Shown: positions 404-64,000 of the stretch, in pieces
Layout: every line of letters begins with the position of its first letter
How positions within the stretch are numbered: the stretch's first letter is position 1
Source: Pelecanus crispus
Lineage: Eukaryota; Chordata; Aves; Pelecaniformes; Pelecanidae
Direction of reading: 5' to 3'
DNA length: 64,000 nt
Assembly: GCF_030463565.1 (NCBI RefSeq)
Contig: NC_134662.1
Location: 6,673,001-6,737,000 of the forward strand
Program-made: the position numbers and the translations under genes
The notes under the pieces: model-generated
The model's database searches: none
The model's input: only the letters and a program-made list of their open reading frames with translations
What the model was told of the DNA's origin: nothing

Positions 404-12986
<12,583 letters not shown>

Positions 12987-34911: not shown

Positions 34912-35505
34912 GTGAGTGCAAGCGTGTTTAGCAGGGCTCAGGGATGAGATGCGGACGGAGATAACGTCCACGGCTGCATCAGGCAGCCTGACACCGGATG
35001 CGCGTGGGTTAGCAATCCTCCTGGCGTGAGCGCTTTGAAAGGGCTTCTTCCTCTAAGCACGCTTTGCTCCTCCGCTGCCTGTCGCAAGGAGCCTGCGAGG
35101 CTGCTGGAACCAGCTGCCTGGAGGAGACGGACACTTGGATTTACCTAAATACGTTATCAGCTCAGCAGTTATTTTAAAACAGTTGTAATTAACGTGAAAT
35201 TGCTCTTTGCTTAATAACAGTTGGAATAACGCGTGGAGCACTGGCGGACCTGCGAGCGCTGAATAGACGCAAAAATGCTAAGAGAGCTGTGAGGGAGAGC
35301 CTTGGGGGTCTGCAAGCCTGGCGAGGAACCCCCCAGCTCCCCACATCGCTATTTCTGAACGTTGTCCTGTGTTCTTCTTGCAGGTTCCTCAGGACGGAGA
35401 GATCCCCTGAGCAGCAAAGCGCTATCGCCTGTGCGGTATGTGAAGCGTGAGCAGGGCATCACAGAGCAGCACAGGGAAACAAACCTCCGCCCCAAGTGCC
35501 GTAAT

Positions 35506-35556
35506 ATGCTTTTTCCATCCATGCTGCTTCAGTCCATCCTCTGGGCCACCAGCTGA
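35506..35556 (+). CDS. Upstream ORF in the TICAM1 leader (16 codons plus stop)
   Basis: ATG at 35506 opens a frame that ends TGA at 35554-35556, four nt before the TICAM1 start at 35561, in a different frame. It is present if the exon runs unspliced from 35384. It may limit or tune TICAM1 translation. Confidence 0.5.
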   Translation: MLFPSMLLQSILWATS

Positions 35557-35560
35557 TGAG

Positions 35561-37705
35561 ATGGCACAGAGCGCCGAGCTCCAGCCAAGCTTTGAGGACA
35601 TTTTTAATATTCTGTCCCAGATCCCACAAGATAAGCTCCTTAGCCTCAAACATAAACTGAAGCACTTGATACCTGGGCCCAGCAGCAAACTACTGCAAGC
35701 CATGGTCCTGCTTACTCTGGGGCAAGAAGCAGATGCAAGAATTTGTTTGGATGCCTTGAGAGAGAACCAGGCAGCCCAGTACGTCCACCAGACCAAACTG
35801 GGCACCGCAAGAGTGCAGGAAGACGGGGAGGATTTGCAGCCTCCCCAGCTGGATGCAGGTGCCATGGCGCTTCTGGCACACATCTACTCAGTGTTAGCCG
35901 AGGAAAAGCTGTGCAGTCATGAAGCCATGGACAAAGCCTACCAGGCTGCCACCAAAGCCTGCAACGCCAGCAAGGAAACTCAGGGGGACACGCTCAACAG
36001 CATCCCAGCTGACGACCAGGAAAACCATGGCTCTGCTATCAGCACGAGCCCAGGTGACAAATTTCAGACACTGAGATCTGATGAGGGTGTAGGATTTCTC
36101 CAGATGGTCAGCCCAAACGACATGGTGAGAAGTTCCCCAGTGCAGATTAGAGGCAACTCGGACCTTTCAGGCCCACGGACCTTGTGCTCTTTGGGGAGTC
36201 CCTCTTTCCCCAGCCACTTTGAGATCAGTGCGTCGCCAACAGCTGCTTTTCACACCCAGCCTTCTTCCCACAAGCGTGTTCCCCAGCCCAGCCGGCTGTG
36301 CGAAGGGAGCACCGGCGGTGCTGGACAGCCTGACGTGGACAGACAGAGCCACGGCCTGCAGGAAACAAGCTGGGCCAGCAGACCCAACTCTCATCCTGGG
36401 CAGGACACGGGTGCCCAAGTCCCCCAACCGGAGAAGGTTCTGCAGGTCAGCTCACGTCGTCCAACTCTCCCTATTCCTGAAACACAGCTGCCCACGCCGG
36501 GCGCTGTGAACCAACCTGTCGAAAGTAGTGATGTTTCCAGCACAGTGGCAGCGGAACCTCGTGCACCAAAAGAAAACACAGACAAAAAGCAAGATGAAAA
36601 GCCAGTGGATACTGGTTCTGCCCACATATCCATGAGGCACTCCTATGTTCCAGCAGGCCTTCCTTCTAGCTCTGCATCTGCTTCCATTTCAACCGGTTCC
36701 CTTCCTCCTCCTACCTATTCCTCCTCCTCAGCCCTTCCCCCTCCTCTTCAGAGAGTTCCTTCCAACTTATATGCCCCTTCCCTCCACTCATCCCCCTCTC
36801 CAGTCTGGCCTCCTCCTCTCCAAACTGTAGAACCAGCGCCCACATCAGAGCCAGATAGTGGAAAGTTCTTCACTTTCGTTGTCCTGCATGCTAGTGAAGA
36901 TGAGATTGTTGCCCATCGGGTCAAGGACCTGCTGGAGAACATGGGGGTTCCCAATGGTGCCACGCTCTGTGGGGATTTCTTCATTGCCGGACGTAGCCAT
37001 CTGACTTGCTTCCAGGATGCTATGGAAAACTCTGCTTTCATCATCCTTCTGCTGACCAAGAACTTCCCATGCGACCTGTGTATGTTTCAGACAAACACTG
37101 CTCTGATGGAGTCCATCCTGAAACCAGACAAGCAAGACTCAGTCATCCCTTTTGTGCCCAAGGAGAACCCCCTGGAGCGGAGTCAGATTCCCAGCACGCT
37201 CGGTGGGCTGATGCCCTTGGATGAGAACTCTCCTGGGTTCTCCAGGACAGTGCAGAACACCTTTACTACCAGCAGGATCAACAAGAGGAAAGCCATGTGG
37301 GACCTGACGCAGAGAAAGAAACTACAGCTGTATCAGGAACGGTATCAAACACTGCAGAACTTCGCTGCTCTGAACCTCGGCTCCCTTCCCCAGGTGCCTC
37401 CATCAGCAACAGGGCCGCAGCTGCTGCAGCGATCACCCCAACAGTGGTGCCCGCCGGCTTCAACTGTCCCTCCTGCCACGTACCCGCCTCCCCCCGTGGG
37501 TCACCCCATGCCCACTCAGATGGGTCCCCCTCCTTTCCAACCATTTCAGCTCCCATCAGGCCACTACAGCATGATGCCAGGTCTAGGTGGCATCCCGCCC
37601 CTCATCATTCAACACGCACGAATGGTTCAGATTGGGAACCACAACATGATGCAGGTAGAAACTGTCACACCAGGTCCACAGGCCAGTGAGGAAGAAAGCA
37701 GGTAG
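35561..37705 (+). CDS. TICAM1: TICAM1 (TRIF), TLR3 adaptor
   Basis: One coding exon, 714 residues (human 712). The N-terminal helical domain begins MAQSAELQPSFEDIFNIL and carries LSLKHKLKHL and LLQAMVLLTLGQEADARI. It is followed by a Ser/Pro-rich middle, a TIR domain from about residue 434 (FFTFVVLHASEDE; BB loop GVPNGATLCGDF with its Pro), and a Pro-rich tail with a RHIM core VQIG at 689-692 inside PLIIQHARMVQIG. In the known family TRIF links TLR3 to TBK1/IRF3 and NF-kB, and to RIPK1/RIPK3 through the RHIM. SHFEIS (residues 218-223) lines up with the IRF3-binding pLxIS motif, with Phe for Leu. ATG 35561 (GAGATGG context) is the first ATG in this frame; the open frame extends upstream only from a GTG. 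Confidence 0.96.
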   Translation: MAQSAELQPSFEDIFNILSQIPQDKLLSLKHKLKHLIPGPSSKLLQAMVLLTLGQEADARICLDALRENQAAQYVHQTKLGTARVQEDGEDLQPPQLDAGAMALLAHIYSVLAEEKLCSHEAMDKAYQAATKACNASKETQGDTLNSIPADDQENHGSAISTSPGDKFQTLRSDEGVGFLQMVSPNDMVRSSPVQIRGNSDLSGPRTLCSLGSPSFPSHFEISASPTAAFHTQPSSHKRVPQPSRLCEGSTGGAGQPDVDRQSHGLQETSWASRPNSHPGQDTGAQVPQPEKVLQVSSRRPTLPIPETQLPTPGAVNQPVESSDVSSTVAAEPRAPKENTDKKQDEKPVDTGSAHISMRHSYVPAGLPSSSASASISTGSLPPPTYSSSSALPPPLQRVPSNLYAPSLHSSPSPVWPPPLQTVEPAPTSEPDSGKFFTFVVLHASEDEIVAHRVKDLLENMGVPNGATLCGDFFIAGRSHLTCFQDAMENSAFIILLLTKNFPCDLCMFQTNTALMESILKPDKQDSVIPFVPKENPLERSQIPSTLGGLMPLDENSPGFSRTVQNTFTTSRINKRKAMWDLTQRKKLQLYQERYQTLQNFAALNLGSLPQVPPSATGPQLLQRSPQQWCPPASTVPPATYPPPPVGHPMPTQMGPPPFQPFQLPSGHYSMMPGLGGIPPLIIQHARMVQIGNHNMMQVETVTPGPQASEEESR

Positions 37706-44447: not shown

Positions 44448-46496
44448 CTAGTGCAGTTCAATGAAGGCTTCCAGTTCCTCAGGGATGAAACCCTTGTAGG
44501 GAATCTTGTGCTTGTCCAGGGCGCGAGCAGCAAGGCACTGGAGGGTGATGTAATTGAAGGGCTGCATCATGCTCTTGGTGAGCAGTTTCTCATCCAGCAG
44601 CTCATAAGCAGTCTGCTTGAAGGCATTGGTGGCATCCATATGGGCTCCAGCCTCCATCAGGGCACTCATGATCAGCGGGCAGTTGTTGCGGGCAGCAACA
44701 TGCAGCGGGGTGTTGTTGTCATAGTCACGGCTATCTGGGTCAGCCCCACACTCCAGAAGCAAGTTCACAACGTGGAGTGATGGGAACTTGCCCACGGGAT
44801 AACGTCCCACTGTTGTGGTATCTTTGTCTACAGCCATATGCAAAGGAGTGAAGCCGTTCTTGGCCCGGGGGCTGCACTTTAGCAGGCGGTAGATAGTCTG
44901 GCGTTTCTGGTGTTCCTGCTCCGGGGTGCACTCCACCTTCTCCAGCAAGAAGACAAGGTGGAGGATAATGGCCAGCGTCTTGGTGAACTGCGCTGAGTCA
45001 ACTACAGGGTCCTTGCCATGCACAAGCGCCCTCTCCACCTCCCGGACCCCTTTGCTCAGTACTCCCATGAGGTCAGAGAAGCCCAGGTGGGTAGCTAAAG
45101 TGCCTTTGGAGCGGTCCTGAAGCACGTAAGAGAAAAGCTCAGCAAAGGAAAGGAAACTGCTGGCAGTCATCGGGCTGAGAGGCTCCAGGTTGCCTTGCTG
45201 CATGTCCAGAGCATACTTCCACAGGTTAATGCAGCGTTCGAAGTTGCCGGAGTCAGCATAGACTGCCCCTCGGTAACGGATGTAATAGGAGGTGTCTGGG
45301 TGGGAAGGACCCAAGATGCGCTCTCTAATCAGCAGTGCCTGCATGCGCATCTCATCTGGGTCAGTAATCAAGGCTTCCAGTTCCTCCAGCGAACTCACTT
45401 CCCGGGAATAGTCGTAGGCCAACACCAGCTGCCGGGGCTCAGGTTTAGGCAAGTACTGCCCGCCCTCACACCGAAGCTCCATCGCCCTTCGCCAGTACTT
45501 GTGGGCTCCCAAAAGGTCACGTTTCTTATCCACAAACGTAGCACCCAGCAACTCCAGTGCTTCCACAGCAGCCTCTCGAGTGCAGAACACGTTAGGGACC
45601 TGCTGCTCATCCTGACTGGAAGCTGAGGCACAGCATCTCTCACAGCCCTCTTCACCGCAGCCCTGAGGAGTTTCCTTGTCAGCGCTGCAGCATCTCTGAT
45701 GGCTCCCACCTGATGCACAGGTCCCATTTTGGTTCCCTGCAACCTCCTCCTCCTCCTGCTGCAGCCCTCCTTGGATGAGGTACTCCACAATGTTGGTGTG
45801 ACCGGTGACACTGGCAGCTAGCAGAGGAGTCATGCCATAGCCATCTTTCTCCATGCGGGCTTTGGAGCGGAGCAATAGCTGCAGGATCTCCAGGCTGCCG
45901 GACTCAGCGCAGTCATGCAGGGCCGTATTCCCCTTCACGCTCCGGCGGTTGACATCAGCCCCCTTCTCTAGCAAGTAGCGTGCAATTTCCCGGTGCCCTT
46001 TGTAGCAAGAAATCATCAAACAAGTGTGTCCGTGCCGGTTGGCTACTTCCAGGTCGGCCCCGCGCTCCCCAACTAAGTAGCGCACGATCTCCAGGTGCCC
46101 GTCAAAGCAAGCAGCCCGCAGCGGCGTGGAGTTGGTCAGCGTGGTCTGGTTCACCGACGCGCCGTGATCCAGGAGGCTGCGCACCACCCCCAGGTGCCCG
46201 GCAGCCGAGGCCGCCCAGAGCGGCGGGGCCCCCTCGATGGTCTCCCCGTCGAAGCTGACCGAGCCTCCCTCCTCCACGCGGGCGCCGCAGTGATCCAGCA
46301 GGTACTCCACCACCTCCAGGTGCCCGTGCCGGGCGGCGATCAGCAACGGCGTGCTCCCCGCCCCGGGGCCGCCGCCCCCGCCGGGCCCTGCCGTCAGCGC
46401 CTCCAGCTCCTCCCGGCTCCGGCTGCCCAGCAGCTTCTGCAGCAGCTTCAGCTTCCCATCGCGGGCCGCGTTGTACACGGCCGTGCGCAGGTCCAT
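44448..46496 (-). CDS. FEM1A: FEM1A, CUL2 ubiquitin-ligase substrate receptor
   Basis: Intronless coding region of 682 residues (human 669), from MDLRTAVYNAARDGKLKLLQ to GFIPEELEAFIELH, TAG 44448-44450. The N-terminal ankyrin repeats include TPLLIAARHGHLEVVEYLL, GAPPLWAASAAGHLGVVRSL and NRHGHTCLMISCYKGHREIA. A variable Gln/Glu/Cys-rich linker (about 285-345) and a TPR-like region (PDEMRMQALLIRERILGPSH) follow, then C-terminal ankyrins (KNGFTPLHMAVDKDTT; DYDNNTPLHVAARNNCP). FEM1 proteins recruit CUL2-elongin through a VHL-type box and recognise C-terminal Arg-type degrons. FEM1A is chosen over FEM1B/C by sequence and by its neighbour TICAM1. The frame stays open for 51 codons upstream, but only from GTG; ATG 46494-46496 is the family start. 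Confidence 0.97.
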   Translation of the reverse strand: MDLRTAVYNAARDGKLKLLQKLLGSRSREELEALTAGPGGGGGPGAGSTPLLIAARHGHLEVVEYLLDHCGARVEEGGSVSFDGETIEGAPPLWAASAAGHLGVVRSLLDHGASVNQTTLTNSTPLRAACFDGHLEIVRYLVGERGADLEVANRHGHTCLMISCYKGHREIARYLLEKGADVNRRSVKGNTALHDCAESGSLEILQLLLRSKARMEKDGYGMTPLLAASVTGHTNIVEYLIQGGLQQEEEEVAGNQNGTCASGGSHQRCCSADKETPQGCGEEGCERCCASASSQDEQQVPNVFCTREAAVEALELLGATFVDKKRDLLGAHKYWRRAMELRCEGGQYLPKPEPRQLVLAYDYSREVSSLEELEALITDPDEMRMQALLIRERILGPSHPDTSYYIRYRGAVYADSGNFERCINLWKYALDMQQGNLEPLSPMTASSFLSFAELFSYVLQDRSKGTLATHLGFSDLMGVLSKGVREVERALVHGKDPVVDSAQFTKTLAIILHLVFLLEKVECTPEQEHQKRQTIYRLLKCSPRAKNGFTPLHMAVDKDTTTVGRYPVGKFPSLHVVNLLLECGADPDSRDYDNNTPLHVAARNNCPLIMSALMEAGAHMDATNAFKQTAYELLDEKLLTKSMMQPFNYITLQCLAARALDKHKIPYKGFIPEELEAFIELH

Positions 46497-46730
46497 GGCG
46501 ACGGGGGCCGCGGCGACTGCACCGGCCACCTCCTGGCCATGGGCCGGCTGCTCCTCCACGCCCCCAGCTCGGCCCGGGGCAGGGGACGGGGACGGGCGGC
46601 CCCCCGGCGGGGAGGAGCCCTGCGGGGCCGGCGGCGCCCGGCGAGACACCCCTCACCTCAGCGCGGCAACCTTCAGTCTCCCCGCCCGGCCGCCATCTTA
46701 GGCTGTAACGCGAAACAAAATGGCGCCCGC
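46497..46730 (-). promoter_or_regulatory. FEM1A: FEM1A 5' UTR and promoter with paired YY1-type sites
   Basis: The minus strand reads AAGATGGCGGC (plus-strand 46689-46699), a YY1 consensus often found at the +1 region of TATA-less genes. A second, oppositely oriented AAAATGGCGCC lies at 46717-46727 on the plus strand. Transcription of FEM1A probably starts near 46690, inferred. Confidence 0.6.
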
Positions 46731-47049
46731 ACGGCCGCAGGGGCGGGGCGGGAGGCGGGCGATGGGAAATGTAGTCCGGCGCCCGGCGCGGCCCGGCCGG
46801 CCCCGCAGGAGCGGCTCCCCGCGGGCTCGGTTTCCCGGCAGGCGGCAGGAAGGGGGCGGCCGCCGGGGCCCGCTGGCCGCGCCGCGCGGGGCGCCCCGGG
46901 AAGCGTGGCCCTGCCCCGGCCGAGGGCGGCCCCGCCCGCGGGTCCCGGCAGCTCCGGGACTGCGCTTCCCAGCGCGCCCCGCGCCGCGCAGGGGCTGCTG
47001 GGGCAGGGAGCGGGCGGGCGCCGGGCGGGCGCGGCGCAGGGGGGCCCGG

Positions 47050-47125
47050 GGCCCGGGGCTCGGGGCTCGGGGCTCGGCCGTCCCCTGCCCTGCTCGGAGC
47101 CGGAGCCGGAGCCGGAGCCGGAGCG
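47050..47125. repeat. GC-rich short tandem repeats (GGGGCTC)n and (GGAGCC)n
   Basis: About three GGGGCTC units (from 47055) and five GGAGCC units (from 47096), upstream of FEM1A in its CpG island. They are likely copy-number variable. Confidence 0.8.
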
Positions 47126-48034
47126 GCCGGGCCAGGCCTGCCGCTGCTCGCCTGGCTGTGTGCGGGCCGGCGCCGCGGGTGCCGGGGCCCCGGGCCCGGG
47201 GCGGGGGGGAGCGGAGCCGGGTGTGAGGTGGGGCCCGGGGACGGGAAAGCGACCCCGGTCCTTGTGCCAGTGCGCCCTGAAAGCCCGGGGAAGGTGACCC
47301 GGGGCCTCCCTTTCTGTGCCAAGCAGGCGCGGCCTGGGCTGGCAGCGTTTTTCTGTAACCTCACAACGTCGGTACATTTCATGGGAGGTTTTATTTCTGT
47401 TAAATTCCTGGAACCGATTGAACTTCAGAGTACAGTAGCTACGCAGCATGCTAGTACGGCATTAGTCTGACGTGGGTTTAAGTGGAGCGAATCATTTGGG
47501 TTTGGTAGAGCATGTTAAAGTACCGCTTTTCCGCCTAGGCCAAGGTAGTCTGGAGGTAGCCAAGCCTCAAGCGTAACAGCAAACACAAGAGTTACTGCCT
47601 TTGATCCCTGCCATAGGACAAGATGTACAGCTTGCTCCATTCCTGAATGGTAATACATGGCCAGAGCGAGGGAAAAATATTCGAGGCAATAAATAGCCTA
47701 GCTTAGATGAGTGAAGCTTTAGTTACCAGAACCTATTTTTAGGGCATAAGTTGAATTTAAGTGGCTCTAATCTTTATATGGGGAATTGGCACAGGGTTTC
47801 TCCTGTTGTATTTTATTTATAGCTGTTTCTTCTCCTTTCCAGGGAAATAGGATTAGTCTCATTATTTCCATTATTATTATTCTGTCTGTCATTATTAATA
47901 TTCAGTCTGTCCATCCATCCGTCCACCCATTTAGGTCTTGTCTGGAATTACCTAGGATCATCCCGCTAATGCATGTTGCCTTCACACAGAATATAATTTT
48001 TGTTGCTAAGAAACTGCTTTTGCATAACAGACAG

Positions 48035-48115
48035 CGTGGGCCTAATTTTCACTTCAGCAGCTGTTAAAGTCAACGGGAGCAGCAGGTGCTCAGCGCTCCT
48101 GAGAGCCAGAGCCAA
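48035..48115. repeat. Old amniote repeat fragment
   Basis: CCTAATTTTCACTTC, then AAAGTCAACGGGAGCAGCAG, then GTGCTCAGCGCTCCTGAGAG. This order resembles a repeat I recall as common in reptile and bird DNA (aattttca...gtcaatgggagct...gtgctcagcac). Family name not certain. Confidence 0.4.
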
Positions 48116-49974
48116 AGTGTCCGTGGCAGAATTCCCACACAAGGTCTGACTGTGCATGCGAGTGTGTCATCTACACGTGCGATGTGCTCAGGGACGCAGC
48201 AGCTTCGCGCTTGAAAAGAAAAGGAGCAAAGGCGTCTTGAGCATCTCCAGCGTGTCCGTGCTGCGCGAGTGCAGCTTGCTGCACGCCGGGGCAGGAGGAG
48301 CGGCTGTGCGTGCTGGAATATTTGCTAGGTGGGAGGGTTCCTGTGTCCCCTCTGCACACAGATGTGTGAATATGCACCTATGGTCACAAGCGAAAAATTG
48401 TGTTCTTGTAAGTAAATAGCCGACAGCAATGACTTTGGGCACAGGTGGTCCATTTTAGTCTTGACGTGTCAGCCTTCACGTGCGTGTCTGTGTGCACTAA
48501 CTCACTGTGTGTAAATATCTAATGGCTGAACGCCTGAGTGGGCTGTGTGCATGCGGGGCTGTGCACCTGTACGTGTCTCTGTCCCCACTTGTGAACATCC
48601 ATGTGTGAAATCCGCAGCACTTAGGCTGTTTTTGCTGCAGGTCAAGGCACAGACACGGTGACATTTCCTCTCCCTGCTGGCTCTTTCATGTTGCTATGGT
48701 GATCAGATGCACTCGCACTTTTATCTGAAGTATCTATTAACTAAAGCTTCCTATTAATTTCCCCTCCGTAGAATGCATGTGGAATTCACCAGAACACCAG
48801 GTAGGCTTTTTAGGTCCCAGATTTACATCAGAGCCTGCCCCAGTTCTTGGGTGGGCTGTCAGAAACATCACAGGGTAGAAGTGCAGCTGATGAAAATGCT
48901 TTTTCCATTAATAAAGAAATTGCTTAGTAATGAGAAAGAGAATAAAGAGCACAAGGAGTAGTGTCACAACAGCCTCTCTCTGTAGATCTGTGAATACAAA
49001 ACATACTTGAGCCTCAATACCTCGCCCCCGACCCAGCTGTAAATGCATTATTTGGTCTGGGAAGTCAAAGACAACTGAACTGGGCGGCCACGCTGCTTGC
49101 CTGGAGCAGATGGGCTGTAACTGCGTCAGCCTGAAAGGTCTGGGGCAAGATCTTGACTCTGCGAGAGGCAGAAACCAGAGGCACCCTGGTTCGTCCTGGG
49201 CAAATTCCTTTGTCACCTTGGTTCTCCTGCATCCCTTGGCTTCCTTTATTGAGGTCACCACTGAAAGAATTAGTGTCCCAAACGAGGGCACCAGGGTGAT
49301 GGAGACATCACCTAAAGGTGGAGACTCTCCTGAACCAGACTGGCCTCAGAGGTGCAGCTCCTGCTCCCGTGGACACGGCAAGCAGGAATAAAACACCTGC
49401 CAGTGTGTAACACCCCATCTGAAAGTGTGGCTGAGTGATGCAGCGCTGCGATGGGCGACCGTACGCAGGGGCGCTTCCCGTGTCCTCCTGCAGAGCTCAA
49501 GCTACTGCTGCTTGTCAGAGAAGCTGCCAGGAATCCTTCCTGTGCGAGTGACAGCTACGAGTAACACGGGGTGGATCTGAACACCTGGGCTAGAAATGAA
49601 GGGCTCAAAACTATCACATCCCTCATCTACAGAATACGTCCTCCACAAGGCCCTGGAGACTCCTGTGAAGGTTTTGTAGGGCAATGCAGATAAAGCCCCA
49701 GCCAGTATTCTGAGAGTAAAGAGGGAAATTAAATACCCACCAGAGGACGAGAAGATAAAAAATGAGACGTTTTGACAGGACTGCCAGATTGTGTGGCAGG
49801 AGGGTTAATTTTTTTTGAAACTGCCATTTCATATTCCCTTTCAGACAAGCTGAATTACACAGTACTGGCTGCTGGAGGAGTTGCATAATTTTCTTCACAG
49901 AAATAATGACAGGGTACTTAAAAAGCAAGTGAATGGATGGCTAAAGTATTGGGCAGAGACTTAAGAAATGTAGG

Positions 49975-50120
49975 CTGAGACCCAACCTTTGCTAGAGACT
50001 ACTTTTTGTGACCTTGGGCTGGTCATTTAATCTTCCTCTGTCTTATTTCCTTGACAATAACATGGGAATAATAACTGTTCTTTATCTGTCTAGCTCATTT
50101 AGACTGCAAACTCAGAACAT
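49975..50120 (+). repeat. MIR-like SINE
   Basis: TTTGTGACCTTGGGCTGGTC, ATTTAATCTTCCTCTG, then CATGGGAATAATAACTG and TAGCTCATTT follow the order of the MIR consensus core (tgtgaccttgggcaagt, ctcatttaa). An old, diverged copy. Confidence 0.6.
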
Positions 50121-51279
50121 ACAGGTTGCATCTTCTGTGCTTATAGGGCAACCAAAGCCAAAGAGCTTCAATTCATGCTAAGGTGTCTGAGACAACCATA
50201 ATATACAAAGTAGATAATAATAAAAGGGCTTGGATATATAGTTTGGAACATTTTCAGCACGAAAGGCTCAAAAGTTCCTAATCCGTTGTTCCACTTCTCT
50301 CAAAATGTGGAGAAGTTTGGATCAGTGCTAAAAGTTCCAAAAGCACATAAATAATTTAGGAACTAGGTCCATGCTGATTTACTGAATCCCCGAGTTACTT
50401 CTGAAACTGTGAGTGGATAATTTAGATGCCTGCAAAATTTTTGCAAGGTCTTTCTGCTCAGTCTGTCACTGCATTAAGGGTTAGCAGCAGACTGAGTTGA
50501 GATCCTCATTTTTTTCAAAGTTTAAATTTAGGTTTGCAGGCAGCTGCCTACCAAGTTTTTATCAATCTCTTCAGCTTTTAGGGGTTTGTCTGATTTCCAG
50601 AAGTGAGAAGAAGATGGCTTCTTGCTATTAGGTCCGGTGAAGACAAGATCTTCTATATAGTTAAGCAACTACATGAGAAATTTGCTGTACAAAGGGAACG
50701 ATTCTAAAAATAGCGAGAAATGGCACCATGACATTAGCAGGAACAATGACCCAATACCCAACTTGCTGCAGGGGCTTTTGTCCTATAACTACCTTCATCA
50801 TTAAGGCTTGTGATGACATTATTTTCTGTGCTTATATAGGGCATGAGGCCACAGCTACCTGGAAGGAAGGATTTTGATCAGACTGCAGAAGATGAACAAG
50901 CAGGAGAGGCACGTTGGGTAACACTAAATCAATGTAGTTTCATTTACATTAGACACCAGCCTGGCAATTTCAACATTAATGGTTGCACTGCTGCCCTCTG
51001 AATTTTTGTAGATTTAATATATCAGTGGGGGAGTAAAAGAGAGGGGGAGTGTGAGTCGTTCTTGCTTATGATACATGGATCTTTTCTTTCATGCATCATC
51101 AAAGGACAGCGATTTGTGCAGTTGTTAAATTCTTTTGGCAATACGTTTCCTGGGATAAGCATTGCTCTGCTCCTGCCTCACAGATTACCTGAGATGATAA
51201 TAGCAATAGTATCTTTGGATCCCTCCCTCTCCCAAACGGAAAGGACAAAAGGCTGGCTCTCAGGCAATGGCAAGGTAGC

Positions 51280-51445
51280 AAGAGCATCAGATCTGGGCCT
51301 AAACCTTAGGCTCAGTTTGCTTTTGTGGAGCCACCAATTTCCTTTGTGTGTTTTGGCAAGTTATCACCTCTGTCCCCTGCCACAGTTCTCCTGTGTAACA
51401 CGCTGCTACCTCGTAGGAGTCGTGGTGGAATAAAGTGCTCAAACA
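51280..51445 (+). repeat. MIR-like SINE, diverged
   Basis: TTTTGGCAAGTTATCACCTC, then CCTGCCACAGTTCTCCTGTG and GCTACCTCGTAGGAGTCGTG parallel the MIR segments for the core, the 'cagtttcc...ctgta' part and 'ctacctcatagggttgt'. Confidence 0.45.
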
Positions 51446-52164
51446 CAAAAGCGATGAGGGACATACGGACTTCTAGGTAGATGGAGAACTAAATTAGCCA
51501 TCTTCCTAATGGGCAAGAATCACCACTTCCCTTTACAGAGGCACCAAATGAGGCAGGGACTGGCATAAGAAGTTGCAACAGGTCAATAGGCACGTAGGAA
51601 ATAGAACCCGTTCAATACCAGCTGCAAAGAAAGGAGTATTAGGACCCACTAAGAACCTGGATGTTATTGACTGGCTTCAAGGACTGTAAAGTATGTTTGT
51701 AAACTACAAAGCACAGGGATTTGGAGGTCAGTGGACTGTCTTCACCTTGTAGACATCTGCTGTAATATGCTCTGGTGCTCTGCTGCACCAGCTCTGCAGA
51801 TAATCATCCCAGTAGGGGTTTGTTTTCAACCTAAGTGGCCAAGCTGAAGGTAAAGGCGAAAGGACTTAAGTTCCTAAATCACATATGCCATAATAACAAT
51901 GACAAGTGTGCAATGCTGAGCATATCCTGTTCAGGTTAAAAAAAAAGAAAATGCTCAACAGCACCAACAACCCAAATTATTAAAGACATTTCGGTACTTA
52001 CTTTTACCACTGGCCTTGGCAGGATTCAGGAGCTTCATTTTCACACCTAAATACTTTTGAGAATAGAGACTCTGGGTGGTATTGAAAATTTGCTCTTTTC
52101 ATGTTTTAAAACCCTGTTGGAAGCAAAGGGCTAGACTTTCAAGACAGTCCCCTCTGGGCATCAA

Positions 52165-52290
52165 GGTACAAGCAGGGTCTCTGAGTGCCCAGCAGACCTC
52201 CGTGCCCTCAGCAGCTGGGGTTTGAGTCCTAACCCTGCCACAGATTTGTTGTGGGGCCTTTGAGCAAGACACTTACCTTAGTGATAGTTG
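52165..52290 (+). repeat. MIR-like SINE, diverged
   Basis: TTTGAGTCCTAACCCTGCCA, then GTGGGGCCTTTGAGCAAGAC and ACTTACCTTAGTGATA resemble the MIR 5' half and core. Confidence 0.4.
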
Positions 52291-52609
52291 ATTTCTATGT
52301 CAAATTGCGTTGAAGTTAGAGCGGGTGAGTGGCACGCTTAGGGAGGGCTGCTCAGGGCTTCAGGGTGAGCCCCACAGATTGCTTCTTCACGGACACTTCT
52401 GTTGCTTCACTCGGAGCCCAAATTCGGTTAACTTCAAGGGGATGGGAAACGAGGAGCAGAGTAAGTCACGATACGACCTCCAGCATACCAAAGCACTTAA
52501 ATACATACTTGGCTTTCAGGTGCGGAGCGGCTGCGGCGCAGCCGGGGCTCTCCGTGGGCAGGTGCACCGCTGCTGTGGCCCAGCCCGTCCCCTGCCAGCG
52601 AGCGTGCAG

Positions 52610-52696
52610 GTCTGTGCTGTATGGCAGGCTATGATTTGTTGTCACCTTTATAAATCAGAACAACAAAATCACTAGTCTTCCACACAGAGCCAGACC
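52610..52696 (-). ncRNA. MIR7-3: miR-7 precursor hairpin (MIR7-3 by synteny)
   Basis: On the minus strand the 5' arm (52682 to 52659) is TGGAAGACTAGTGATTTTGT followed by TGTT, identical to mature miR-7-5p. After a 17-nt loop the 3' arm (52641 to 52620) reads CAACAAATCATAGCCTGCCA then TA, very close to known miR-7 star strands. The arms pair with a lower stem (GTCTGGCTCTGTG with CAGCACAGAC). MIR7-3 lies between FEM1A and DPP9 in human, on the FEM1A strand, as here. miR-7 is abundant in neuroendocrine and pituitary cells. The primary transcript is not visible. Confidence 0.97.
52659..52682 (-). ncRNA. mature miR-7-5p
   Basis: Exact 24-nt match to the mature miR-7 sequence; seed GGAAGAC. Confidence 0.97.
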
Positions 52697-55600
52697 ACCG
52701 AGAGCGAGCAGCGCTTCCTCCTTAGGGACATCCTCTTTCACGTCGTCTTCTGTTATCCTTCCTCAGTTCTCATTCTTTCCACACTTGTTTCTCATTTCAG
52801 GGATGGATGCTGCCCTTTGCAGTGCAAAAAAACCAGTGTCCTTTGTGAGACTGTGTCAAATCTCACTATAATCGTCTGTCCAATTTTGTGACTGTAGCTG
52901 TGAGTTTCTGCTCCATTTTCTCACTCAGGAGACTTGTATATGCCTATAAAAATTTGGATCATGTTTTCTTCAGGGGTATCAGGGCTCAGCAGGGTCTCCT
53001 TTTTCCTTACCCTATGATAAACTTCTCCAGGAGTGCTCTGTCAACCTGTCTATCTCTCAGCTGTATTTTGGTCTGACTAAAATAAGCAAATGCAATATAT
53101 ACTTGGGAATGCTGGAGAAAAGGAATCAGTTAGCAAAGAAAAAGATAATGATAGTGCTGAGTTTCCTGGAATCCTACTGAGAGAGTGATTTAAGCAAGAA
53201 AAACAAAACCTTTTTGCTGTTTCCTTTCCTCTGAATTTGTTGATGAGCAATCTTTATTTCACCCCAGGTTTAGCTTTGCTTCCACTAGCCAGCTTTTTTC
53301 TGTTAATACCTCACATATGGCATGAATAAGGTGTGAAAGGACAATGCTGGCTCACATCCATGGAAAAGATCTTACTTTATTCCTTTCCACCGCCGTTGTC
53401 TGAGTGAGGTTTACTTACCTCAGCCACTGAAATCAAACAAGGGACGGCATCCTTCCCGTCTTCAAACCAAGCCTGTTAAATGTACTTTTGTAAGCAGTTG
53501 TAAAAAAAAGGGTAAGAAACAAAAGTATCCTTCAGCGGCCTCGGCTCTGCAGAGCTGCTGTGGTGAAAGGCTCCTTTCACAGAAGGAGAAAGAGTTCAGC
53601 AAAAGGAGAGGGTTTGCTGCTGCTGACAGAGGTGGTGCCCCATGCGAGCTCACAGAGAGCAGTCCTCCCTCCCTCCCTCTCTCTCTTTTTTTTAAAAAGA
53701 CATATGTGCTTTCTGTGGACACTCTAATCAAACTCCAGATGGGTTGTTTCAATCTGGGGATTTGTGCTGCTCAGGAGATAACAGTCCATTGTGCTAGCCT
53801 AGGTGTGTTTGTGATAGCTAGGGCTGATACCAGGAGATGTCCAGGTGGTCTTATTTAACAGGGGTATTAGTGATACTGCCATTGTCCAGGAAATCAGATA
53901 AAACTGCAGTCCAGGTGTTACCCTACACCGTGTTTGTGTAATGACATTGCCAACTGCTGATTGCTACCTACATTAAAATAGAGACCAAACACTGCAGAAG
54001 GGTGACATTTTCTCGTACAAGATTGCCGTCATCCCCAAACTTCCTGGGGTGCACTGTTTAAAGTGCAAAATTTAATCTGAATATAAAGTGGAACAGTAGT
54101 GAGCATGCACCCCTTGCTTGTGCTGAATACAGCTTTACTCTGATACCTGCCTGTTCCTGGCCTGGGCTTGGATTTCCTAAATTGAGGCATTTCCTCTAAA
54201 CCGTGATCTATTTTCCTCTCTGCCCTACCACAGAGCGTTCTCAAATGAAAACGCTTTGGGGGGCGAGACAATTTTTAGAAATAAGCTGCCCAGGACAATT
54301 CAGTATTCTGCCAAGGATAATTAGAAAAGAGAATGAATTGTAAAGATGAATGACCTTGAGAGAGAGAGGATAGTTTGGGAAGTGCTAACCTGGGCTGTAA
54401 TTTCAGGTGACAAGAACACTTTGCAGTCTTTGTTCCAGAACGACGCTGCCCAGCACAGTGATACACCAGGTCCAGGAAGGGATTTGCCACAAATTATTGC
54501 TAGACAATCACGTAATAATCAAGACAGAAGAAGTAACTGCTCAGCTTGAGCAAGGGATGAAGTCCTCTGCTGTTTTTACACACATGCATTCCCTTTTTGG
54601 AGCAAGGTATTTAGTAGAAAACATAAATTCCAGGCTCAGAGGTGTGCGAGACTTTTGTCTAGACTTCAGATAGCGTGACTGTCTCTGTAGGGCCATATTT
54701 CTCAATGTGATATTTTTCAGGATGGGATCTGCCACTTCCAGTTTGTCCCAGAGATTTCAGCAACGTGGAAGCTTATGGCTCCTTGTACCCATGGCAGATG
54801 AACCCCATGGTGCTGAGAGGCCGCTGTTGTTTCTTCGTAATTGTTTATATAGATAGGATCTAAACTTAGCTACAGAACATGGTGAAAAAAAGCCTGGTTA
54901 GAAAGAGTGGGGACTCAAGAGCTTAGCCTCCAGCTATCTTAGAAGAGGCTGGCCCATCACGGAGAGATCCCCAGCTGCACTTCCAGGCTGTAAATTAAGC
55001 GAACAGTATTTCCTATATACCAGACCACAGGGATGGTAGAAAGAACAGTGTGGCCTTATTGCTGTTATTTCCTTTGGTTTCAATCTCTGTCCTCTGCCCC
55101 CCACCTCCTTCTCAGACTGGTGGTGCCCACTTTACCCAATTTGTTGTTTATTACAATGGTTTAAAGGGAGGCAGGGGGAAAAATGCTCAGTGCAAATTAT
55201 ATTTTGAGCTGTTGTGCTTTGCCTCTTTGGCGGATAATAAATCTCTCTGGCAATGCTCCTCTGTATAGGATTTGTCATTAAATGCAATTAAACAAACCCT
55301 GCAGGTGTCCATGATCAGGCCTGCAGCAGCCCATTCACAACTGCAATGTTATTATCATCCTGACAACAAAACACCAGATATTTCCTGAGCTCCTCTGATC
55401 GATGAGCTTGCCTGACTTGGAACTGGAGGGAGGAGAGAAGGGGGGAACAGAGTGGTTCAAATGCTCTTTAGACTTATTGATGGAAAAGTCAAAAAGCTGC
55501 TCAGCAATCAGAGAGAAGGTGGAAAGAGAAAAAGGCAGAGGAACAGGAGGGCTGAAAGGAAAAAATGAGAGGAGTGTTTGGGAGCAAAAAGATAGAAATG

Positions 55601-57444
55601 AGGCAATAGATCACGTGGTTTCCATCTACCCAGTGATTTTGTTAATGCACAAGACTAGAATTTAGGAGGCAAGCAAGGTATTTTAGGTATGATTCTTCTC
55701 ACGTAACTTTATCCTATTAACAGTTAGGCTTCTAGTGTAAGAGAGTCATGTAGGCTCCCTTTGCAGTCAGTGCAAAAACTAATCTCACCCTAAGACAGGA
55801 CTTGACTGGTAGGTTGGCTTGTTGTCCAGAGATATCTGTCTGTCTCTGTTAACTGTAGCTGAATGGTTGGATCACATACCCAACCAATTGCAAATCGCAC
55901 CCGTAACAGCCAAAAGAATTGGCTTTTGCTGAATGCATGTTCCTTTCTATCTTCATTCACGAGGAGGCATTTCCTGGCACAGCTGTCAGGACAGCATGCT
56001 ACAGAGGCATTGCTAATAGTATTTGTAGAAAGCAGATGCAACAACATTTACACCAGAATTGTTGTGTGCTCTGACAATCGGGAAACAGGGAAAAAAAGTC
56101 CTGTGGTTTGTGTCAGCCATCCCAGGCAGCCTGCAGAGTATGAAGGTCAGAGATTCACAGGGGACTAGCTGCTGTCGGGTCCAGTGAGAGAGAAAATTTT
56201 GCAAACACCGGTCAAATTATTCTGCCTGAATCATTTGCTCAGTTCAGCCTCAGGGTGCTCTTGGGATGAACCTCTTTTCCTCTTCTATTCTCACCCCAGG
56301 AATCCTAGTTTAGTCCAGTTGATTGCTGGGGCACATACAGAATTGCAGTGACAAGGGATAGTTTTATATTACTGTAGCACCTTTGCAAATGCATGGCACC
56401 ACAGAAAGCAAGCCATTTTTAGGTTGGATAAAGGGAATTAAATGAGTAGGCTCCAGTAGTGCGTGTGCATATGTAGAGTGTAAGGGATGATTATTTACTA
56501 CTACAAAAAAAAAAGCTATTGTCAGGGTCTTTGACTAAGTTTTTATAGCCTCATCTGAAATGCCCAGTAGAGCAAACAGCATGGAACCCTCTTTACTGGC
56601 ATCAGAGATGAAGCTGGGATTACGGCAGAAGGATCCCAGATTTCTGCTATCAATGCGTGGGTCTCAGGATGACAACTTCCCCGGACCACGCATCTAGATG
56701 GCTACGCAGCGCTGGTCTCTGGCTCCCTGGCTGCTAGGGCAGTCCAGATTCCTGTACCAAAGAATGTCCTCTCTTTCTTACTCTCCTGCTCGAACACTGG
56801 AGGATTTCCCTCTACCACCTTGTATGTCTTTCTTTCCACACTGTATTACCACTTAATCTGCTGGTTTGCGCCAGCAGCAACCCAATGTGCAATTATCTAG
56901 TGGCACAAGTCAGCACGGGTGTATCGAAGCTAGCAGAAGTGTTCCTGTGTTACCACAGAATTTGGCCCTCGAGTCCGTCTACGAAGTGTCAATTCACTGG
57001 ACAAACCAGTGGTTCCCCGGTTGTGGTCCTGGGGTCAGTGGTGGTCTGCAAGGGCATGGAAAGATCCACAGGTACCAGTAGTATTTATGAATAAGTCCAT
57101 TTTGCATAGCTTCACCCACAGATCTTGGGGACATTTGAGATGACACTGGGTCAGAACATTTGGGAACCATGCACATATGCAGAAACCAGCAGCCTTACTG
57201 GTAACACGGCATTGCACCTCTCTACTTTCTGCCATTTCCCTCAGTTTCTGCCTAGACTCTGCTCTCAGACACGTCTGCCAAAATCTAGAAACATCTCTGA
57301 TTTATTCCTCCCAGATGCTGTAGGATTTGCACTGGGGTGACAAAGCCGAAACAAAGGGACGTGCTCTCTTCCAGGGAAAAAAGACAAGAACTGGCATGTC
57401 CCAGCTGCCAGTCTGAGCAGCCCGGTGACTGTTAATGAGTGTCA

Positions 57445-57555
57445 CTGGGACAGATCTTCAGCTGGCGTAAATGAGCAGTAGCTGATTGTAAGTCCACAAG
57501 GACTTTAGTGAAACTCTGTTGATTTACACCAGAAGAGCAGCTGGTCCAGGGCTCA
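57445..57555. repeat. Old inverted-repeat element
   Basis: The left arm CTTCAGCTGGCGTAAATGAG and the right arm, which reads CTCTTCTGGTGTAAATCAAC in reverse complement, can fold over a spacer of about 40 nt. It resembles a foldback repeat I recall from sauropsid genomes (cagctggtgtaaatc ... gatttacaccag). Confidence 0.5.
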
Positions 57556-58179
57556 GGCTGGCTAGGGAAACCCCCTGGAGTTTCCATCAGTGGGTGTGAG
57601 AGCGGGGTAGAAGCCGGCTGCGTATGTGAAGGGGTGCAGAAAGCAAATAAAGGGAAGAATGGGAAATGCACATCTTATTGCATTGACTTCTCCAACAAAC
57701 ACTTTTTTTTTCCCCTTCTTTCCACTTCCCTTCTTCCCCACCTCCAGCAGCTCCTCTCTCACAAGCTCCCTCTCCGTGCTGCTCATCTCCCTTTGTGCAC
57801 CTCTTACCCGCACTCTCCTCTCTAAACAGGTGCAGTTGCCACTCAATAGACTTTAATTACCACTTCAAGGGCTCTCACCAGGGTCTGTTGGGAGGGTGGA
57901 GATGAATTTTCCTGAGGATTATGCGTATGTCTGAGTTCTTTTTAGTCAGATGGCAATACTGTTGTCAGTCTGTATCCTTCGAGAGACTGTTTCTTCATGT
58001 TCTCTCTGCTTGTGTTAACAAAAAGCAAAACTGCTGATGAAGGAAAAAACCCCCAGCCATTAGCTAGATTAATTATCAGGACAGCAAATTGGTCTAGAGA
58101 AAAATATTATGGGCAGGTTTAAAAAAAACCCAGGAGTCTCAGCTGGGCTTCTAAAACATTATTTCTGCTTGCAAATAAG

Positions 58180-58245
58180 AGGCCAAATTTTCAGAAGTGG
58201 AGAGCTCAGCATCTCCAAAGATTTCTGTGGGAGACTGGGGTCTAA
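58180..58245. repeat. Old amniote repeat fragment
   Basis: AGGCCAAATTTTCAGAAGTG followed by GAGCTCAGCATCTCC. It appears to belong to the same kind of old repeat as the pieces at 48.05 and 63.3 kb. By memory only. Confidence 0.35.
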
Positions 58246-61200
58246 AAATACAAGTTGTTTTTAACCACTTTACCTTCTTTTTTGCTCCATACTCTTCCCA
58301 TCACAGCTCACTGGAGAAATGCACCATTAATGCATTCTGCTGGTACCCGGGGGATTCCTCCAGAGTGAACGTGTCAGTTGATTTCTGTCTTCAGCATAGT
58401 TTGCCTATGATGGAGAGTTATTCCCAATGTTTAACTAGTAACATAACATTATTTTTATTATTAAGATCCTCTTCAGAAGACAATCCTGCAGAATGCAGAG
58501 CAGAAGCTTATGTCTGTTGGATCTGCTTGAAATTGTTTGCACAGCATGTGAGCATGCGCTTGTGTATGAATGGAGATGCACACAGAAATGTATATACGTG
58601 CTTATATATGCTGATACATGCACCACGGGAAAATATAGGAGCTGGAAATATAACAGTATCTTTTGGGACAGGGAAGATTTCCAAATATTTAAAGAATAAT
58701 TTTGCTTTTGCTCAACATTAACATTTTTAATTTTTTCATAAAATGAAAAGCAGGAAGGAGATTGTTTTATAGCAAATTAAGCAGCATTTTCTTCTGCCAA
58801 AATTAAGTTTGTTTTCCTAAACAAGCAATTCAGAAAAATGGGGAAATAGCGTAACCAAATCTGCGTTTTTGCATACGTGTTTTCCATGAAACATTTTGCC
58901 AGGCTCCAAAACAGCTGGGCATATGCAACATCTGGGCTTCTGTTTGGCACTCGCTCCTGTACTGGCCCCCGGGCATGCACCAGTGTCGGTGCCAGAGGGC
59001 AATACAGTGCCGTGCTTGGCCTTCACTGCCCGTGCAGGATACAGGCTGTGCTGAGCAATTCTGCATTCATGCCACTGAGCCAGCTTGCATTTCTGGGTCT
59101 GTATCCAGACTCCTCTTATCCCCTGGGCATTAGCAACCACGCAATGAGACCCAGGCGCTGGGCTGAGGTTCTTACGTGTAGTTGTGTCTCTGCACCCGAA
59201 TGGCATTCATTTCCCATCCGGCACAGCCTGCCTCTGCGCTCCTGCCTGCTCTCAGCTCTGGGCTTTGCTGATACCTGCAGCACAAAGACAGGAGAGGTGA
59301 AGGAAGGATAGGTGGACAACACTGATGGGAATATGCTGCTAAAAAAGCAAAGTAATCGTAATTGCCCTTCTGTCCTAAGACATCACTTTAGTCTCTGTGT
59401 GGGAATGTTCTGTTCCTCCTTCCTTAGGCTCAGAGCGCGACAGTGACCCGATAAAGTAACGAGGAGCTTGACACCATGGGCTCAGTCTGGGACAGTGCTG
59501 CCCCTTGGCACAGGGTCTGTGATGGGAAAAGGAAGAGGCGTGTTGATGTGCCTACGAGAGACTTCTCCCTGTGCCAGCACAACATGTCTATGCCACTTGC
59601 CCTGAACTTTCTCCTCACTCAGGGGGATCCATTCCCCTCTTCTTCCTGTACTTCTCCACCAGGAATCCTCCAGTCCCTTCCTCTCCTATTCCTCTCCAGC
59701 CTCTGGAGATCTGCCAGCCCTCCTGATGTTCCCACTCTCATTTCTCAGGTTGTATCCTTCTACTTCTCACCATAGCTCGCTCTTTCAGCCTCTAGGATTT
59801 TAAAATCCTTCTGTCTTCAACATCTCTTCCTCCCCCGCTTCCTTTTCTTGTGCATTTTGCTTTCCAGGCCCATCTCCCACATGTTCTCCTGCCATTTATG
59901 TGGGACTAGGATGAACATTGATCACAGCCATCTCAAACCCATCTCTCTCTTTTCCCGAAGAGCCAATGAAAATGTCACCCATGAGATAATCATCATGTTG
60001 CTCACGTCCCTTAATTGCTCTCAAAGTACACATTGAGGCTGCAGAGCCTCTTTGAAAGGCAGGTTCTGGCCTTTGGCACATTATTGACAGGCTGTTGATA
60101 GGCCCCTTTGTTGAGGAGCAATTTTGTCCCTTTTGCTGTACAATTTTTTGTTTTTTTTAAAGACAGCCCTTTCAGAGAGAGTAGATTTTAAAAATAGAGC
60201 TGAGCTTTGAATGAACAGGCACCAGACTTATTCCTGAGAAGCAGTGGCATACATGTGAGATGAGAGCTACCAGCATGTTTCATGCAAGACTCCATGCAAG
60301 AAATCAAAGCTATGATGACTGATAGCTTCATCCTAGTTGCTTTTTATCCCTTCCCTTCTAGACCTGGTAATTAGATGTTTACTTGCAGTGTATTACTAAA
60401 CCATTAGATGTCTTGTGTGTTCCGGTGCGTGGTCCCTGGTAAACAAGTAAGAGAAAGTTGACACTCAAGCTGTGCGGCAACCCATTTCTATCTATTAGTG
60501 ATAATTCTTTTGTTTATTTAATACCTGCTGATTAAAATGCACTAAGATTTCCCCATCACAGCAGCCCTTCACCATCTCAAAAGCTGTACAGGTCTGGGGC
60601 AATTGCTGGTGTGCCTGCTGAAAGGGAATATTGAGAGCAGAACAAAGCACACTTGCTCTCCCATTACTGTCATGGGCAGAGATCCTCCATTAGCAGTGCG
60701 GAGTCTATGACATGTAGCTGAGCAATTCTCACATCAGCTACTGATTCCTGTAGTACACACACGCTTTGAAGCCACCTCTTTAATACAAGTTTATTTTAAC
60801 CTGCCCCCATGGAAGCTGGGGTCCCACCGTGGTAGGTGCTGCATGTACATCTCAAGTTAACCCTACTAAAGCCTCCAGCATGGCTGCACAGCCAAGCTCC
60901 AGTCTGCATCTAAGTAGACTTTCAACACAATCCTTAGCAAAATCTCCAGGCTATATGCAACTAAAAACCAATCCTGACAGAAATGAAATTCTTTCCTCTC
61001 TGAAACAATGTCCCTTGGAATGATTTTGCTGTTAATGAACCCCGACTGAGCTGCTGTATTTTGGAGCCACTGGTGTGCATTTTAACAAGGAGCTCTCTAC
61101 GTGTGGATGTGCATCAACATGGCCAGCCCCCATAATGGAAGTCTGTTCAGCATTGTAAGTCCCGCATTAGGCTGTGCCTGTAGGAACCCTGGGACGTTCC

Positions 61201-61991
61201 ACTGAGACTGCCTGAAGGTAATCATCTCTGCCAGCCTCCTGGCTGTCCCTAACCAAGTGCTCAGCTTGCATCTATTCCAGGAAACAGCTCTGGAGATTAT
61301 AAAGTTTAGACCCTAACGCATTCACTAGCAACAAGGGGAGGGAAAGTGCCGTTTGATTATAGATGAAAAGGAAAAATGCAAGGGGCTTTGGTATTCAGAA
61401 AAATCTCCAGCATGCTGTGATTTGGTTGTTGAACCCTGTAAGGGACTGGAAGCCCTTGAACTTCATTGTTTTCTATGAGTCAGTTCAGCCAAATTATAAG
61501 CAATACTTGAAAAACATAGTCCGCCTCGAATTTATCTTGGACTCCTGCATGATTAAAATGATGCATCCCAGTACTTGCCATCACAGAAACCTATTTCATA
61601 CATTACATCTACTTAAATACATATTTTTTCTGTGCATGTGTATCAAACACACGTCACAGGGAGTAGAACATATATGCATTATTTAGATCAGTGTACGTTA
61701 GAATGGAGTCCATTCTGTCAAAATTCAGGAAAAGGAGTTCTTTCAAACCTGTTCCCTCATGGATAGGCCAGCAGAAAAATATAACACCTGTCTTCTAGAG
61801 AAAAAAAAAATCAGCTAATTTATTTTTAAAAGTTGTGAACTCATTTGTTGGCATCTATTGTTCTACCTACCTGTGTTGCACCTTGTCAGGTTATGTAAAA
61901 TCTGCACATACCTCTGTTGCCAAATAGCCTTCATCAGCATGTAGCGAGAACTGTACTAAAACAAAATGTTGGCTGAATTAGATGGAGCGGA

Positions 61992-62204
61992 TTAGAAAGA
62001 TGATAAAAAATAAGCTAAGAGAAAATAAGACGATAAATAGGTCTGGCAAGATAGATGGATAATCTTCCTCGCAGGCCAAACATGACAAGATAATAACCTT
62101 TTTCTTTTCTCTAGTTCCATTTGCTCTTGGATCTCCAGAGCTTTACGAATATCACTTAATTTGGTCTTCTGGTACCCGTGTGAAATGGCTATCACAATGT
62201 CCAT
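61992..62204 (-). CDS. Unrecognised 70-codon ORF, possible small exon
   Basis: ATG-initiated ORF (MDIVIAISHGYQKTKLSDIR, then KALEIQEQMELEKRKRL). The part up to KRKR is charged and helix-like, unlike the compositional ORFs nearby; the C-terminal part looks random. Same strand as miR-7 and about 9.4 kb upstream of it. It matches no family I know. It could be chance, a microprotein, or part of the miR-7 host transcript. Confidence 0.2.
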   Translation of the reverse strand: MDIVIAISHGYQKTKLSDIRKALEIQEQMELEKRKRLLSCHVWPARKIIHLSCQTYLSSYFLLAYFLSSF

Positions 62205-63269
62205 TTTTACAGAAAAGGGATCTGAGGTGCATTACTTAGGAATAGGTTTTAGTTTAAGATTAGGATTGCAAAAATCAACCAAACTGTTCTCTTTTGTTGG
62301 TTTGCTTCTTAGCTAGCACCGTGCCTCGGGCAGTACGGTAGACTGAAGACAAGCTGGTAAAACGAGCGAGCTACAGCCGTGTTTTCACAACTCGCCTCTG
62401 CCACGCTGTTTGCGCAGCCAAGCCAGAGCGGGAGCGAGTCTCGTCCTCTCCGTCAGAGTGTGTCCCTGTTCCTGTCACCAGCTGGGGACAGTGGCTGTCG
62501 CGTTCAGAGCTAGATGCAGCTGCTGTGATGGTGCAGCTCTCCTTCTGCTCCCTTATCGTGTTGTGATCTGCAGAGCAGAGGTTGCACCTGGCGATGGGAT
62601 CAGGGTAACTTTCCTTCTGTCCCCTGCGCTTTCAGAATATAGATGATTTCTGAGCAAATCCAAACAACCTGCATGAGGAACTGATAAGCTCATTAAACAT
62701 TCAGGACTATGATGGTGCTTTCTGAATTCAGAGAAGGCTTGTCTGAACTGTCCTTTGCTCTCCTTGCTCAGGAGAAATTCCCATTGCTTCTGCTAGATTC
62801 AGTGCAAGGTCTGAGTCTGCAGCCAGCAAAGCGTTGGGCCCTTTTCTGGAGCCTTTGCCTTCCAGACAGTGACATCTTAACCAAGTGGGAGGTCCTAAGT
62901 AAAGTTTTCTGTTGCTTTGTGTCATTGATTTCTCCATGTACATTCAACTGGCAACACGGAGCAACAGAATATTTGATTAGACAGAATTACAGACCACAAC
63001 ATTAATAATTTTGTGAGTTTAACTGAAAAGATTTGCAATTGTTCTCCCTGGGAACTGTGCAATTTTCTCCTTCTTCTTAAGAGAACCTCTCCTTTTTACT
63101 TTAATGGCAGGGTGTATTGTCATCTTACGGTAGCAGGTACTGACTATTGCTTCTGATTCGGGGGGCCTGAATCCATGCAATTTTCATCTGGGCTGGAATC
63201 TTGTAGGTGGACTGTTCATCATGGCTCTAGATTTTCAAAAGAAGTTAGCAATTTGGGATACCTTATATT

Positions 63270-63420
63270 TGTGTTTGAGACACTTTGAAAGGGAACCGCT
63301 TACGAGAGAGGCAGGTGCTAAGCAGTCCCTGAAAATCAGGACTAATTGAAACATGTCATGCTGGGCACCTGAAAACACTAAATGCTTTGGAAAATCATAG
63401 GTGGGTGTTCTGTTTCTGAA
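63270..63420. repeat. Old amniote repeat fragment
   Basis: GAGACACTTTGAAAGGG, then CAGTCCCTGAAAATCAGGAC and GGGCACCTGAAAACACTAAA, TTTGGAAAATCATAG. This order parallels a widespread sauropsid repeat as I recall it. Name uncertain. Confidence 0.4.
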
Positions 63421-63839
63421 CATGACTTGGGAAGACTGTGCAGCCTTAAGTAACACAGGATAAAAAGAAGATCTTTGCATAATATTATGGAAACATCCTT
63501 TAATCCTCAGTTCAGCCAAGTGCTTAACTTTAGGCATGTGTTTGATTCCTGTGGGAGTTAACTGCTGAAGTTTCTGCAAGTGCGTGTGTATTTTCCTGAC
63601 GGGGGCCCAATGCTGTGTAAGTTACTGTAGGTTTGTTTTATGAAAATTCCTCAGTCAGTCTCCAAATGAAAATAAAACAAAAGGCAAAATTCTCCTCTAT
63701 CCTGAAGTGTGATGCTGAGCAGGACGCACAAGGCATCGCTGACTTTCTGCATGTCCATGCATTCACATGCAGAGCTACAGACTGCACCATGAAATGTCCA
63801 TTCTTTGCACTCCATAAAACCCCAAAGCCTGAGTCACAG

Positions 63840-63910
63840 ACTGTGTTAAGTGCTGAACAAACACAGAACAAAGTGTCCATGCCCCAAAGAGATTACAGTC
63901 TCACACAGCA
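63840..63910 (+). repeat. Old SINE/L2-type tail
   Basis: TTAAGTGCTGAACAAACACA, then GAACAAAGTGTCCATGCCCC and AAAGAGATTACAGTCTCA resemble the 'tgccccaaagagcttacaatct' tail of old L2-related amniote repeats. Confidence 0.5.
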
Positions 63911-64000
63911 GCCAGGCTGGTCACCGTGGTGATGTAGCTGTAGGTTTGAATTAATGCAAGATTCTGCAGGGCTGCAAACATGCAGTTGAAAAGCAAACAA

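Follow-up and report, generated by a model that had tools for sequence, protein, structure and literature searches.

A mir-7 family hairpin upstream of FEM1A in Pelecanus crispus that is very probably the MIR7-3 microRNA gene

The window, by which we mean the whole 64,000-nucleotide stretch of Pelecanus crispus DNA that was analysed, carries on its minus strand a genuine mir-7 family precursor hairpin at 52608–52697. We conclude, with a probability of about 0.97, that this hairpin is the vertebrate MIR7-3 microRNA gene, named gga-mir-7-3 in chicken, an assignment based on the neighbouring genes, the terminal loop and the AGCC motif of the star strand. The locus is already known, its chicken counterpart having been named and mapped in print (PMC2777939, PMC11050503). 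What is gained is that an apparently empty stretch is seen to hold a conserved regulatory gene; otherwise, the value lies in correct annotation.

The mir-7 covariance model (Rfam RF00053) matched 52608–52697 of the minus strand along its entire length (model positions 1–91 of 91) at 80.5 bits (E 6.7e-16), well above the Rfam gathering score of 51.8 for mir-7, and within the 64-kb window no other Rfam family reached its own gathering score. The mature miR-7-5p, TGGAAGACTAGTGATTTTGTTGT, is present as an exact 23-nt match at 52660–52682 on the minus strand (0 mismatches), as the sequence-only reading had claimed, with the seed GGAAGAC intact and all 23 letters kept. It is the single such site in the window even when up to three mismatches are allowed, against a mean of 0.01 expected, a match having occurred in 1 of 100 shuffles. 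An 18-nt terminal loop (52642–52659) separates it from the predicted star strand, miR-7-3p, CAACAAATCATAGCCTGCCATA (also written CAACAAATCATAGCCTGCC), which the fold places at 52620–52641 on the opposite arm, again in keeping with that reading, whose bounds of 52610–52696 were at most two bases off those given by Rfam. One weak match to another family, mir-1756, lies at 57446–57548 on the plus strand; with 27.2 bits (E 0.13), where mir-1756 has a gathering score of 100, it was taken as chance.

Folding had been proposed as a check on the hairpin, and it bore the proposal out. The minus strand of 52600–52705 folded at −37.1 kcal/mol with a z score of −3.18, and none of 200 shuffles folded equally well. 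As independent proof, folding was nevertheless rejected. When 1726 segments of 100 nt from both strands of 46650–64000 were scanned, and z scores (40 shuffles each) were calculated for the 340 with a minimum free energy below −28 kcal/mol, the best segment over the hairpin ranked only 16th by z. Identification therefore comes from sequence plus structure, not from folding alone.

For comparison with the human paralogues we used a printed precursor that we take to be human MIR7-3, together with the presumed human sequences of the MIR7-1 and MIR7-2 hairpins and of miR-7-1-3p. The printed precursor appears as pre-miR-7 in Table 1 of PMC7336199; aligned with it, the hairpin agreed at 73 positions, with 12 mismatches and 5 gap positions, for a score of 55.5 as compared with a best score of 17.5 in 500 letter shuffles. 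In a two-sequence consensus with this precursor all 29 predicted pairs were kept, five of them changed on one side and none on both, so that compensatory pair changes between the window and human were absent from these 29 pairs. Whole-hairpin scores were 57.0 for MIR7-1 and 32.5 for MIR7-2 (both presumed sequences), on either side of the 55.5 for MIR7-3, while the star strand agreed with the presumed miR-7-1-3p at 20 of 22 letters and with the stars of human MIR7-3 and mouse miR-7b-3p at 17 of 22 each. With MIR7-1 slightly ahead in hairpin score and closer in the star, the paralogue is not proven by sequence alone; similarity disfavours MIR7-2 but does not separate MIR7-1 from MIR7-3. Shared with human MIR7-3 are the mature sequence, the 5′ flank GTGGTCT, the loop start TCTGAT and the AGCC of the star, although the human loop has 15 nt as against 18 nt in the window.

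The neighbouring genes are those of the MIR7-3 locus: FEM1A, on the same strand as the hairpin, TICAM1, a perilipin and UHRF1. The FEM1A coding region, whose reading frame was checked, runs from ATG to stop at 44448–46496 on the minus strand (682 codons plus stop), and the hairpin lies upstream of it on the same strand, with 6112 bases between the hairpin end and the start codon. The FEM1A product contains ankyrin repeats, and in a phmmer search FEM1C chains came top (E 8.6e-284), with FEM1B weaker; none of the best 60 of 450 matches was a FEM1A-named chain, and it is from the neighbouring genes that FEM1A takes its letter. The main TICAM1 (TRIF) open reading frame, stop to stop, occupies 35444–37705 on the plus strand (PDB TICAM1 chains, E 4.9e-70). 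This frame also matches the Pfam families TRIF-NTD and RHIM, with RHIM close to the C terminus. Two perilipin reading frames lie on the plus strand at 30055–31146 and 32137–32718 (Pfam Perilipin, E 5.2e-36 and 1.9e-32, respectively), in the PLIN3 position, and it is this position that gives the gene the name PLIN3. A run of about five tandem 132-bp repeats, each of 44 codons and with 82% matches, is found within the perilipin gene at 30142–30905. At 6711–7067 on the minus strand, a reading frame contains the PHD exon of UHRF1 (PDB UHRF1, E 2.3e-32), with UHRF2 the weaker match (3.1e-22). The neighbours, the strand of FEM1A, the loop start TCTGAT and the star AGCC all agree with the earlier placing of the hairpin at the position and on the strand of human MIR7-3, the human gene order and strand being taken as background.

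The same set of genes is reported for chicken, in which UHRF1, TICAM1, FEM1A, PLIN3, gga-mir-7-3 and other genes are given within one 0.656-Mb stretch of GGA28, their order not being shown (PMC11050503). We therefore place the hairpin at the MIR7-3 locus. In print, gga-mir-7-3 is mapped to chr28:4436025-4436119, gga-mir-7-2 to chr10 and gga-mir-7-1 to chrZ, the chrZ coordinates also being given for gga-mir-1452 and possibly an error (PMC2777939). Human MIR7-3 lies inside an intron of its host gene (MIR7-3HG/PGSF1) on chromosome 19 (PMC8004586), at 19p13.3 (PMC10746940). The comparison with gga-mir-7-3 covered the gene list and the 23-nt mature sequence, which is identical to that of the window (PMC9876980). 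These observations weigh heavily against the hairpin being a different miR-7 paralogue, MIR7-1, which lies in HNRNPK. Despite the lead of the presumed MIR7-1 sequence in hairpin score and star identity, that reading is very unlikely, because in chicken FEM1A, TICAM1, the perilipin and UHRF1 accompany gga-mir-7-3, the other two chicken copies are mapped to other chromosomes (with the reservation about chrZ), and the star AGCC and the loop TCTGAT are as in MIR7-3.

The star strand of this MIR7-3 hairpin contains CATAGCC, which the sequence-only reading had set against CACAGTC and offered as a possible mark of the avian locus. As a whole the variant is not supported as such a mark. Its AGCC is common to human MIR7-3 and mouse miR-7b-3p, and is thus no avian mark; only the T, in CAT for CAC, differs from both. 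Of the mouse stars, miR-7b-3p, CAACAAGUCACAGCCAGCCUCA, has AGCC and agrees with the window at 17 of 22 letters, while miR-7a-2-3p has AGTC (PMC8044879). CATAGCC is accordingly a MIR7-3 feature (AGCC) plus one C to T change, and this change may be particular to this lineage. The notion of the star strand as an avian signature is thereby corrected. The 15-letter core of the star, sought as RNA, DNA and reverse complement, was not found in the main texts of the literature searched, an absence that says little, since tables of this kind often sit in supplements. A further mouse sequence, labelled let7b where it is printed, we take to be miR-7b. This mature sequence, printed with the miR-7b-3p star, has U at position 10 (PMC4947922), where the window has A.

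We also considered whether the plus strand yields a microRNA of its own from an antisense hairpin. The plus strand of 52600–52705 does fold (z −3.29, with none of 200 shuffles as good) and matches the mir-7 model at 35.8 bits (E 0.00028), but this score does not reach the gathering score of 51.8, and when one strand forms a hairpin its complement usually does too. A second product from the opposite strand thus seems highly improbable.

Beyond the sequence, hairpin and locus documented here, we infer for the source animal a host transcript, processing and tissue use of the usual kind: a primary transcript from the minus strand, which probably corresponds to the human MIR7-3 host gene, itself noncoding, would fold into the hairpin, which Drosha and then Dicer would cut; the 5p strand would be taken into Argonaute as miR-7-5p and would repress seed-matched mRNAs, mainly in neural and endocrine tissue. 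The processing signals are mixed. A UG is present at −15 in both the window and the human sequence, one base off its usual place, and the loop is without UAG. Within the region examined, +1 to +27 past the 3p arm, CNNC starts only at +1 and +11 and not at +16 to +18, whereas human MIR7-3 has CNNC at +17.

Expression of avian miR-7 is documented in print. In zebra finch, three miR-7 loci are reported with three sequenced star strands that differ in read counts (PMC3585881). In chicken, gga-miR-7 is called abundant in pituitary and hypothalamus libraries (PMC5364632), gga-mir-7-3 is tabulated among the miRNAs that differ in expression in chicken cells (PMC9876980), and its reads are given as four in lung and none in trachea, mature reads not being locus-specific (PMC2777939). 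The mature letters printed for gga-mir-7-2 and gga-mir-7-3 are identical (PMC9876980), and mature reads can therefore not be assigned to one of these loci. That the hairpin is a dead copy, kept by chance after expression was lost, is very unlikely, the least probable of the alternatives: the absence of CNNC at the usual distance would fit it, but the intact mature sequence, the Rfam match, which spans the whole model and exceeds its gathering score, the chicken lung reads (with the limit on locus specificity just given) and the three stars for three loci in zebra finch all speak against it.

The terminal loop invites a further, tentative suggestion about how MIR7-3 is controlled. UAG, a Musashi-type motif, occurs in neither the window loop nor the human MIR7-3 loop; the window loop contains AUUUA, an AU-rich motif at which HuR could still bind. 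HuR and MSI2 are reported to repress pri-miR-7-1 via its loop (PMC6298569, PMC8216281), and the MIR7-1 loop has UAG plus a run of U (PMC8216281). Conceivably, though we consider it rather unlikely, MIR7-3 escapes this loop-based block, in birds as in mammals, a reading drawn from three loop sequences only. If it were true, MIR7-3 would be under transcriptional control and not under processing control.

The hairpin had further been described as the only gene to be identified in the 17 kb to the right of FEM1A. This stands as far as it goes, in that no other Rfam family reached its gathering score and, among the 40 open reading frames scanned of the 71 of at least 70 amino acids to the right of 47470, none reached a Pfam cutoff, all seven weak Pfam matches falling below theirs; further genes may lie in the other 31 frames or in short exons, and a host transcript without coding capacity may run there. 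Regulatory DNA in this region, which the sequence-only reading linked to miR-7 expression, may serve miR-7. The section closest to FEM1A is a CpG-rich island at 46601–47400 (GC 0.79, CpG observed/expected 0.89), which, from its position, probably belongs to FEM1A.
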